Below are positions 35,206-37,578 of a stretch of 64,000 nt of DNA, in pieces (position 1 is the stretch's first letter; each line of letters opens with the position of its first letter). The stretch lies in the NCBI RefSeq assembly GCF_900166585.1, contig NZ_FVZC01000008.1:1-64000 (forward strand), in the 5' to 3' direction. This DNA comes from Mesobacillus jeotgali. Its GTDB lineage: Bacteria; Bacillota; Bacilli; Bacillales; Cytobacillaceae. The translations under genes and the position numbers were made by a program. The notes beneath the pieces were generated by a model, which was given only the letters and a program-made list of their open reading frames with translations, searched no databases and was not told the origin of the DNA.

Positions 35206-36495
35206 ATGTCATCCGTAGTAGTAGTGGGAACACAATGGGGAGACGAAGGAAAAGGGAAGATTACAGACTTCCTATCAGAAAATGCCGAAGTGATTGCCCG
35301 TTATCAGGGGGGGAACAACGCTGGCCATACAATAAAATTCAATGGTGAAACATATAAACTGCATTTAATTCCATCCGGAATTTTTTATAAAGAAAAAATC
35401 AGCGTTATCGGCAACGGAATGGTTGTCGATCCCAAAGCACTTGTGAAGGAACTTGCCTATCTGCATGATAAAGATGTTTCCACAGACAATCTTCGTATCA
35501 GTAACCGTGCGCACGTAATCCTTCCGTATCATCTGAAACTGGATGAAGTTGAAGAAGCTAGCAAGGGTGCCAATAAGATTGGCACGACGAAAAAAGGAAT
35601 CGGTCCAGCTTATATGGATAAGGCTGCTCGTATAGGGATCAGGATTGCTGACTTGCTGGACCGTGAAGTATTCGAAGAAAAGCTTACCCGCAACCTTGAA
35701 GAAAAAAATCGCCTGTTTGAACGCATCTATGAGACTGAAGGCTTCAAGCTTGAAGATATACTCGATGAGTATTTTGATTATGGGCAGCAAATCAAGGATT
35801 ATGTGGTCGATACTTCGGTGGTGTTAAACGACGCTCTCGATGAAGGCCGCCGCGTCTTGTTTGAAGGTGCCCAGGGAGTTATGCTCGATATCGACCAGGG
35901 TACATATCCCTTTGTTACTTCATCTAATCCTGTAGCTGGCGGGGTGACAATTGGTTCAGGAGTAGGGCCTACGAAAATCACTCATATTGTCGGTGTTTCA
36001 AAAGCTTATACGACCCGCGTAGGTGATGGTCCGTTCCCAACCGAACTGGACAATGAAATCGGCAACCAGATTCGAGAAGTTGGCCGTGAATACGGGACAA
36101 CAACTGGCCGTCCGCGCCGCGTTGGCTGGTTCGACAGCGTCGTCGTCCGCCATGCCCGCAGAGTCAGCGGAATCACGGATTTATCTTTGAACTCCATCGA
36201 TGTTCTGACTGGCATAGAGACACTTAAAATTTGTGTAGCTTACCGCTATAAAGGCGAGCTGGTCGAAGAATTCCCGGCAAGCCTGAAAACACTGGCTGAG
36301 TGCGAACCAGTCTATGAAGAACTGCCAGGCTGGACAGAAGACATCACAGGCGTAAAATCACTTGATGAGCTGCCAGAAAATGCAAGACACTATCTGGAGC
36401 GCATCTCACAGCTGACAGGTATTCCATTATCCATCTTCTCCGTCGGTCCAGACCGCACACAAACAAATGTTGTGAGAAGTCCTTGGAGATCATAA
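35206..36495 (+). CDS. purA: Adenylosuccinate synthetase
   Basis: PurA joins IMP and aspartate with GTP hydrolysis, the first committed step to AMP. The 429-residue protein has the N-terminal P loop [22 protein letters not shown], the IMP-binding [17 protein letters not shown] and the C-terminal NVVRSPW region. GGAGGTGC precedes ATG 35206. In B. subtilis it likewise precedes the trnY cluster and the wal operon. Confidence 0.98.
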
Positions 36496-36864: not shown

Positions 36865-36998
36865 GAGCCATTAGCTCAGTCGGTAGAGGGTTGCTAGCTT
36901 CATTGATTAAGCTTCTGGGGCAACCTGCGAGAAATACCGAAGGTCTTTTGAGCACAGGTTCCAAACAGACACCTAGTTTAGGGTGTAGATTATATAGA
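36865..36998 (+). repeat. tRNA-Lys 5' half fused to structured insert, copy 1
   Basis: Positions 36865-36888 are identical to the first 24 nt of the intact tRNA-Lys at 36999. The sequence then switches to an insert (36889-36949) with hairpin A GGTTGC (36889-36894)/GCAACC (36920-36925), then TGCGAGAAA, hairpin B ACC-GAA-GGT (36936-36944), then GAGCA (36950-36954), which is the sequence that should have followed the D-loop. An A-rich tail of about 44 nt leads to the real tRNA-Lys. No anticodon arm or T arm of tRNA-Lys is present, so this is not a functional tRNA gene. Confidence 0.8.
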
Positions 36999-37074
36999 GA
37001 GCCATTAGCTCAGTCGGTAGAGCATCTGACTTTTAATCAGAGGGTCGAAGGTTCGAGTCCTTCATGGCTCACCA
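36999..37074 (+). tRNA. tRNA-Lys (anticodon TTT)
   Basis: A complete cloverleaf: acceptor GAGCCAT/ATGGCTC, D arm GCTCAGTCGGTAGAGC, anticodon stem CTGAC TTTTAAT... with TTT in the loop, T arm with GGTTCGAGTCC, and an encoded CCA at 37072-37074. B. subtilis has trnY-Lys at the same place after purA. Confidence 0.96.
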
Positions 37075-37144
37075 AGATTTTTCGCGGTAGCGATAACAAT
37101 ATTCCATAAACTCACGATAGTGAAAATGGATAAGCTTAATATAT

Positions 37145-37216
37145 GGCCCCTTGGTCAAGCGGTTAAGACACCGCCCTTTCACGGCGGTAACACGGGTTCG
37201 AATCCCGTAGGGGTCA
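37145..37216 (+). tRNA. tRNA-Glu (anticodon TTC)
   Basis: Acceptor GGCCCCT/AGGGGTC, anticodon loop CTTTCAC within the CCGCC/GGCGG stem, T loop GGTTCGAATCC. CCA is not encoded; the sequence after the discriminator A is CTTT. It is the second member of the cluster, as in B. subtilis trnY. Confidence 0.96.
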
Positions 37217-37237
37217 CTTTATACATAATTTTTTCTT

Positions 37238-37360
37238 GGCTCAGTAGCTCAGTCAGTTGCTTGCTTCACTGAATGAGCATCTCTGGCAACTTGCGAGAAA
37301 AACCGAAAGGTTTTTTGAGCAGGTGGAAACAAAACAAAGTTTAGGAAACAATTTTATCGT
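37238..37360 (+). repeat. tRNA-Phe 5' half fused to structured insert, copy 2
   Basis: 37238-37254 match the first 17 nt of tRNA-Phe, up to the middle of the D loop. Hairpin A is AGTTGC (37255-37260)/GCAACT (37286-37291), so the outer G-C pair of copies 1 and 3 is replaced by A-T. Then come TGCGAGAAA, hairpin B AACC-GAAA-GGTT (37301-37312) with a GNRA tetraloop, and GAGCA. The tail contains AAGTTTAGGAAACAATT, shared with copy 3. Confidence 0.8.
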
Positions 37361-37496
37361 GGCTCAGTAGCTCAGTCGGTAGAGCAGGTTGCTCACATCC
37401 TCGACTTTGCTTCAGCGGCAACCTGTGAGAAAGACCGAAAGGTCATTCGAGCAAAGGACTTAAACAGAATAAAGTTTAGGAAACAATTCTTATCTT
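37361..37496 (+). repeat. tRNA-Phe 5' half fused to structured insert, copy 3
   Basis: 37361-37386 match the first 26 nt of tRNA-Phe through GAGCA. Hairpin A is GGTTGC (37387-37392)/GCAACC (37418-37423), followed by TGTGAGAAA, hairpin B GACC-GAAA-GGTC (37433-37444), then a second GAGCA (37449-37453) and AAGGACT, which again matches tRNA-Phe before the sequence diverges. The insert is therefore flanked by a 5-bp GAGCA duplication. The tail AAAGTTTAGGAAACAATTCT leads to the intact tRNA-Phe. Confidence 0.8.
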
Positions 37497-37569
37497 GGCT
37501 CAGTAGCTCAGTCGGTAGAGCAAAGGACTGAAAATCCTTGTGTCGGCGGTTCGATTCCGTCCTGAGCCA
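37497..37569 (+). tRNA. tRNA-Phe (anticodon GAA)
   Basis: Acceptor GGCTCAG/CTGAGCC, D arm GCTCAGTCGGTAGAGC, anticodon stem-loop GGACTGAAAATCC with GAA, T arm CGGTTCGATTCCG. CCA is not encoded. It is the last tRNA of the cluster and is followed by a terminator. B. subtilis trnY also carries tRNA-Asp before Phe; no Asp gene is seen here. Confidence 0.96.
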
Positions 37570-37578
37570 TTAAAAAAG

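Follow-up and report, generated by a model that had tools for sequence, protein, structure and literature searches.

The window, the whole stretch of 64,000 nucleotides of Mesobacillus jeotgali DNA that was analysed, harbours a Lys-Glu-Phe tRNA group with purA (35206-36495) as its 5' neighbour and, on its 3' side, a gene resembling cell-wall hydrolases with matches below curated cut-offs, followed by yycF/walR and walK. Re-reading of the sequence confirmed three chimeric copies of an element within this group at 36865-37496, at the positions noted earlier, and with them the predicted location among tRNA genes. Copy 1 (c1) precedes tRNA-Lys, and copies 2 and 3 (c2 and c3) stand in tandem before tRNA-Phe. 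Each copy consists of a head, a two-hairpin body called type A, for which R1 is the covariance model, and a distal part:

36865-36888 (+): head of c1, the first 24 nt of tRNA-Lys, identical to the start of the tRNA-Lys gene at 36999
36889-36954 (+): type A body of c1 (R1, 83.5 bits, E 5.5e-19)
36889-36925 and 36926-36954 (+): hairpin A and hairpin B of c1, the latter with tandem G.A; strands read from alignment A3
36955-36998 (+): distal part of c1, a third hairpin ACACC/GGTGT and the AT-rich tRNA-Lys leader (sequence, minimum free energy fold)
36999-37074 (+): intact tRNA-Lys (TTT) (ARAGORN, Rfam)
37145-37217 (+): tRNA-Glu (TTC), without a head copy in front (tRNA prediction, upstream-copy comparison)
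37238-37254 (+): head of c2, the first 17 nt of tRNA-Phe, without the 3' D strand
37255-37321 (+): type A body of c2 (R1, 80.9 bits)
37322-37360 (+): distal part of c2, hairpin AAAC/GTTT and leader (sequence, minimum free energy fold)
37361-37386 (+): head of c3, the first 26 nt of tRNA-Phe
37387-37453 (+): type A body of c3 (R1, 86.1 bits, E 1.1e-19)
37454-37495 (+): distal part of c3, resumed tRNA-Phe AAGGACT, then hairpin CTTAAAC/GTTTAGG and leader (sequence, minimum free energy fold)
37496-37570 (+): intact tRNA-Phe (GAA) (ARAGORN, Rfam)

A promoter/terminator scan, in itself uninformative, gave no promoter-like site on the + strand before c1. The window start falls inside a 16S rRNA gene (1-76, - strand).

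The original prediction held that each copy is headed by the 5' part of the tRNA that follows, which we confirmed for Lys in c1 and for Phe in c2 and c3. The paired changes it described on both strands of stems A and B are likewise present, with stem A reading GGTTGC/GCAACC in c1 and c3 versus AGTTGC/GCAACT in c2, and stem B GACC/GGTC in c3 versus AACC/GGTT in c2. Hairpin B exists but is longer than described, with two facing G.A pairs, and the GAAA loop assigned to it is a GAA triloop in c1. The apical loop of hairpin A, described as unconserved, is indeed variable, but a TTC/ATC-N(2-3)-GAAT-like motif is kept in most copies. A flanking GAGCA duplication is complete in c3, but the heads of c1 and c2 stop before it. 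Two further proposals, that the terminal GAGCA is a free 3' strand of the D stem and that it closes a three-way junction, disagree with the consensus fold, in which GAGCA is part of hairpin B and its distal GCA pairs with TGC at the hairpin base; two of these three TGC/GCA basal pairs are unchanged in all 49 sequences of alignment A2. A three-way junction may be conceivable in copies lacking the 3' D strand, such as c2.

Among the 49 type A copies that were aligned, hairpin A has the consensus RRTTGC/GCAAYY with a variable tip, mostly carrying a TTC/ATC-NNN-GAAT-like motif, and hairpin B reads TGC-GA-GAA-A-GACC-loop-GGTC-A-TTC-GA-GCA with facing G.A pairs. In another genus, hairpin B becomes TGC-GA-CAAAGACC-GNA-GGRCTTTG-GA-GCA and hairpin A is lengthened to GATTTTAAAAG/CTTTTAAAATC. 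The covariance-model search for homologues suggested at the outset was run and returned many further members. Within the bacterium's family, R1 matches 101 of the 193 genomes and 15 of 25 genera; across the order, Bacillales, 17 of 397 sampled genomes match, and four of these belong to another family. The source genome itself holds six tRNA-linked R1 matches and a weak seventh in a dispersed repeat; its further type A copies lie before tRNA-Phe (L002, L003) and tRNA-Lys (L005), and type A matches also occur in M. boroniphilus (L108) and M. campisalis (L062). A chance origin of the copies is ruled out, since the genome contains these six tRNA-linked matches and 19 of the 21 genomes of the genus, the source genome included, match by BLAST. 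As several of the matching genomes are single-contig assemblies, an assembly artefact is rejected as well. In L275 (1392-1987, - strand), one tRNA-Lys is preceded by five type A copies that have identical bodies and repeat every 132 nt.

A different kind of insert in front of the initiator tRNA of the source genome led to a second body, type B. By pattern 31 sequences were found, of which 27 were aligned and four, at Asp and Gly, were excluded from the model R2. Type B hairpin 1 reads GCAAC-GA-GC...GC-GA-GTTGT and hairpin 2 ACCGATC...GATCGGGAC, the third pair of the latter being C-G instead of G-C in 8 of 27. At E <= 0.001, R2 matches 149 of the 193 genomes in the family, from 22 of 25 genera; in the order sample it matches 172 of 397 genomes, from 74 of 135 genera. 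The tRNA context was checked for part of the matches behind these two counts and behind the R1 count for the family. At E <= 0.0001, 15 of 398 genomes of a class sample and 2 of 299 of a phylum sample match, all from the same order, with the number of sampled genomes from outside the order not given by the search output. Because samples of more than 40 genomes were run with stricter filters and with scoring limited to 11-27 candidates per genome, the presence counts are lower bounds. One genome (G028; L361, L396-L401) has 34 type B matches, those read lying at Asn, Thr, Arg, Lys, Met and fMet tRNAs. Two type B bodies can also stand in a direct row before one tRNA-Arg, as between tRNA-Gly and tRNA-Arg in L345 (909-994 and 1003-1083) and L353 (898-983 and 992-1072).

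In the fetched loci both types share one layout, in which the 5' part of a tRNA X is followed by the two-hairpin body, by mostly 30-65 nt and by the intact tRNA X, where X is Phe, Lys, fMet, Met, Asn, Thr, Arg, Asp or Gly. We placed 197 bodies (76 type A hits in 54 loci and 122 type B hits in 83, with one body in L302 matched by both models and counted once) in loci that were hand-picked from the match lists rather than drawn at random. An intact tRNA on the same strand lies downstream of 194, the three exceptions being a body truncated where the locus ends (L305), a body beyond the last tRNA (L344) and a body with only the 3' half of a tRNA-Arg behind it (L411). The gap between body and tRNA measures 30-65 nt in 136 of 140 cases when the nearest body per locus and host tRNA is taken. 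One set of 20 regions deliberately included isolated matches, and tRNAs, lone tRNA-Arg genes among them, lie beside the element in all of these.

To assign the heads, each was compared against 32 tRNA types, a score of 12 or more counting as a clear head. Their own downstream tRNA is the best match for 165 of 171 clear heads and strictly the best for 155, and six fit another tRNA better; with each distinct context counted once, 191 bodies remain, 188 of them with a downstream tRNA, and 160 of 165 clear heads fit their own tRNA best, 150 strictly. Across the many genera sampled, this comparison shows that the match between head and tRNA is maintained. Heads are weak or absent in 23 of the 194 bodies having a downstream tRNA, and some bodies come straight after the CCA end of an entire tRNA (Gln in front of Lys or Cys, Thr in front of Tyr), thus the head is not essential everywhere. 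Within the source genome, an upstream copy of the own 5' end was found for three of three Phe, three of three fMet and two of four Lys tRNA genes and for none of the remaining 62 (72 in total), the longest shared stretch being 10-27 nt in the eight genes with a copy and at most 8 nt elsewhere.

The resumed tRNA segment tracks changes of the host, as in Phe with AATGGA (L307, L359) and AGTGG, and the leaders before head and before tRNA are similar above background, most strongly from -1 to about -11. For 100 of 139 bodies the nearest relative sits in another genome at the same host tRNA, for 35 in the same genome at another host, and four are tied, in a comparison biased toward the same-host result by the larger set of other-genome bodies. 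Bodies thus look more host-locked than genome-clustered. Tandem arrays occur in L275, L352 and L396.

The junctions between head and body were tallied over 129 distinct head/tRNA combinations. In 77 of 79 distinct type B heads the end lies at AGC or at most 3 nt past it, and this AGC falls at tRNA position 14-15 in fMet (5' D strand), 17-18 in Asp and some Lys and Arg, 31 in Gly and 25-28 in most others. Type A junctions vary (n = 50), with 30 GAGCA-like, 13 TAGAG and seven others. The type B seed pattern demanded GAGCA, TAGCG or CAGCC before the body and R2 includes GAGC; the AGC junction and the closeness to tRNAs are therefore partly selected, but the spread of AGC positions across the tRNAs is no product of this selection. 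As junction positions vary, the element is independent of an intact D arm, and the earlier proposal of an element targeting D arms fails, since the type B body follows AGC wherever it falls between positions 14 and 31. The AGC junction has a structural explanation, its GC being paired at the base of type B hairpin 1. Within the heads, positions 1-7 are less conserved (84-96% in type A) than the D arm.

Selection on the stems was assessed from pair counts in which identical rows were counted once. In A6 (type A) 95.5% of cells pair, compared with 81.4% in shuffles and 27-44% when slid, and 173 cells are changed on both sides versus 45.9 in shuffles; the values for A5 (type B) are 92.0%, 74.9% and 27-37%, with 219 both-side changes versus 53.2. 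The MAFFT alignments A3 and A4, made without model fit, agree on pairing and yield 39 versus 12.2 and 21 versus 4.0 both-side changes, and further pair types in them are not above shuffles (269/500 and 173/500). Hairpin 1 is nearly invariant in A4, and its covariation support comes from A5.

The balance of G.U and A.C pairs bears on the strand, with the reservation that fitting A6 and A5 to their models gives G.U an advantage over A.C. The ratio is 94:4 in A6, dropping to 52:4 when one constant U.G column is left out, and 71:33 overall in A5, where hairpin 2 gives 8:0. The outer part of type B hairpin 1 gives 63:12, with 53 of the G.U in one column and 10:9 without it, and its two inner pairs contain no G.U and 21 A.C. 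The large excess of G.U in type A and in hairpin 2 of type B suggests that RNA of the sense strand is favoured there. The strand of type B hairpin 1 is undecided, as no bias is left without the constant G.U column. Folds of individual copies improve on shuffles only modestly (z -2.2, -2.5 and -1.4; opposite strand -0.8, -2.1 and -1.2, that of c2 almost equalling the sense strand), and the structural case accordingly rests on comparison. This comparison shows that selection acts on the body stems, and for type A the sense-strand RNA is its clearest target; the strong stem covariation across relatives supports the selection for RNA structure proposed at first. Family, tRNA coupling and structure are thus established on comparative grounds.

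A search of known families, as originally proposed, matched neither a family nor an intron to the element. Only tRNA and rRNA reached gathering scores in the window and four loci (Rfam 15), and in a permissive Rfam search over five loci no family exceeded its gathering score within a body. No description of the element was found in Rfam 15 or in the accessible portions of the literature searched (PMC5826253 and PMC11354880 included), and the portion of PMC11354880 available to us holds nothing relevant to it. As far as these partial sources and Rfam reach, the structured-RNA element is undescribed, in line with the initial claim that no described family fits. The Staphylococcus aureus RNA S774 (RF02896) scored 43.3 bits at an fMet leader, below its cut-off of 48, its best alignment consisting of the tRNA-fMet start and AT-rich leader and covering just the end of the body.

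Several known systems share single traits with the element. The rtT RNA is a repeated spacer RNA of the E. coli tyrT tRNA operon whose repeats hold a piece of the adjacent tRNA. The element would likewise be a spacer RNA of a tRNA operon carrying a piece of a neighbouring tRNA, but rtT repeats the 3' end of tRNA-Tyr, whereas the element repeats the 5' part of many tRNAs and has another, covarying body and an order-wide spread; with heads that are 5' parts and no Rfam match, an identity with rtT is rejected. The sponge 3'ETS-leuZ of E. coli, a 3' trailer, derives, as the element would, from a tRNA precursor spacer, but has neither a tRNA head nor the body seen here. T-box riboswitches are structured RNAs and, as could hold for the element, involve cognate tRNA in their function; the element differs in preceding tRNA genes and in showing no terminator/antiterminator, and it was rejected as a T-box for want of a match to the Rfam model. 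A self-splicing intron in tRNA is rejected because no Rfam intron matched and the body is not succeeded by the tRNA's 3' half: in the copies read, L411 excepted, the tRNA resumes for at most some 4-13 nt before the intact tRNA begins.

We infer co-transcription of the element with its tRNA and a role for it as an RNA domain within the pre-tRNA. When RNase P cuts at the downstream tRNA, the element would be released as a spacer RNA of ~130-160 nt. Before that, the head, as a second copy of the tRNA 5' strand, could pair with the 3' acceptor strand of the nascent tRNA and compete with its correct folding, and the body may hold and time this decoy strand, so that the output of mature cognate tRNA would become adjustable. 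Decoy or processing roles, both raised in the original prediction, are possible for the copies. The reading favoured here is that of a pre-tRNA domain acting in cis, with its head as a competitor for the tRNA 3' strand, since the cognate identity of the heads is otherwise hard to explain, yet it is the least certain step and we put its probability at roughly 30%. It is weakened by the lower conservation of positions 1-7 and by the headless copies, and no output switch was found in the element. If it were true, every nascent tRNA would have to win a strand competition before maturation. That the element forms an order-wide class of cis-acting RNAs controlling tRNA supply gene by gene through such 5'-strand competition goes further and seems rather unlikely.

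Two close rivals of this decoy mechanism have to be weighed. A mobile mini-element, without genes and adapted to tRNAs, could insert in tRNAs after AGC (type A at other points), leaving or re-creating an intact tRNA downstream in the manner of target-carrying integrative elements, a possible alternative, if on balance doubtful. Integrative elements that target tRNAs leave a partial tRNA copy on one side and an intact tRNA on the other, and this likeness is evident here; the differences are units of ~130 nt, which leave no room to encode a recombinase, the RNA-level covariation and the position upstream of the tRNA. Mobility would account for the type B junctions after AGC (77 of 79 distinct heads) from tRNA position 14 to 31, for similar bodies in different host tRNAs, for the tandem arrays (five identical bodies with a 132-nt period in L275, 34 matches in G028) and for the body of L411. 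In the last case, only the 3' half of tRNA-Arg comes after head and body (792-869, - strand), marking a tRNA gene that is interrupted or in decay. Against it stand the host-locked appearance of the bodies, the sense-strand G.U bias of type A, the pairing of the GC of AGC in hairpin 1 and the part of the AGC result that was built in by the R2 seed pattern and the model start GAGC. BLASTN with one query per type, which weaker relatives could escape, gave no match in phages or plasmids. The duplication of head and leader around the body also fits a tandem duplication.

A further clue to mobility is met away from tRNAs. A type A-like body, AGTTTTC...GAAT...TTGCGAGAAGCG-TAGCTTTGAGCAG, splits a dispersed palindromic repeat, CTCCAGCGCCTAGCC...CTCGAG, after TAGCC, between CTAGCC and CTCGAG, and the repeat occurs with and without the body (L416, L420, L386-L395, L290-L292). 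The filled copies L416 and L420 share their genome with empty ones, and 49 matches to one filled copy with its flanks were counted in the same genome. The repeat was reached via weak R1 matches in G096 and is not counted as a tRNA element. All copies read have the body at one and the same point, so that a single insertion carried along by the spreading repeat may account for them. In the regions examined this one repeat lineage is the sole occurrence away from tRNAs, which counts against mobility.

The second rival takes the element as a source of trans-acting small RNAs, in which the processed spacer would bind a protein or RNA as a sponge and the head would serve as a handle. Two conserved hairpin classes with a recurring loop motif and tandem G.A, the location among tRNA genes and the known precedent of sponges from tRNA-operon spacers speak for it. 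A purely trans-acting role, however, leaves the match of the head to the adjacent tRNA unexplained, and we consider this reading possible, if on balance doubtful. A folded site acting as DNA rather than RNA, such as an attC-like recombination site, appears very improbable: type B hairpin 1 (CAAC...GTTG) resembles attC in its 2-nt unpaired spacer and variable tip and lacks a clear strand bias, but attC recombination uses the bottom strand and G.U far exceeds A.C in type A and type B hairpin 2. Functionless decay of tandemly duplicated tRNA genes, which the heads, short resumed tRNA segments and leaders resemble, is hardly credible and is refuted for the bodies by their strong covariation and by matches in 74 of 135 sampled genera.

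Bacillus-like tRNA operons are usually pictured as plain strings of tRNAs. An element tied to the identity of the next tRNA would imply that a level of tRNA biogenesis, a parasite adapted to tRNAs or a large source of small RNAs has been overlooked. A 137-nt spacer between tRNA-Met(CAT) and tRNA-Glu (L204), without a clear tRNA head, is type B-like in places (GACAAGC, GAGCTGCT) and is possibly a degenerate or further type of the element.
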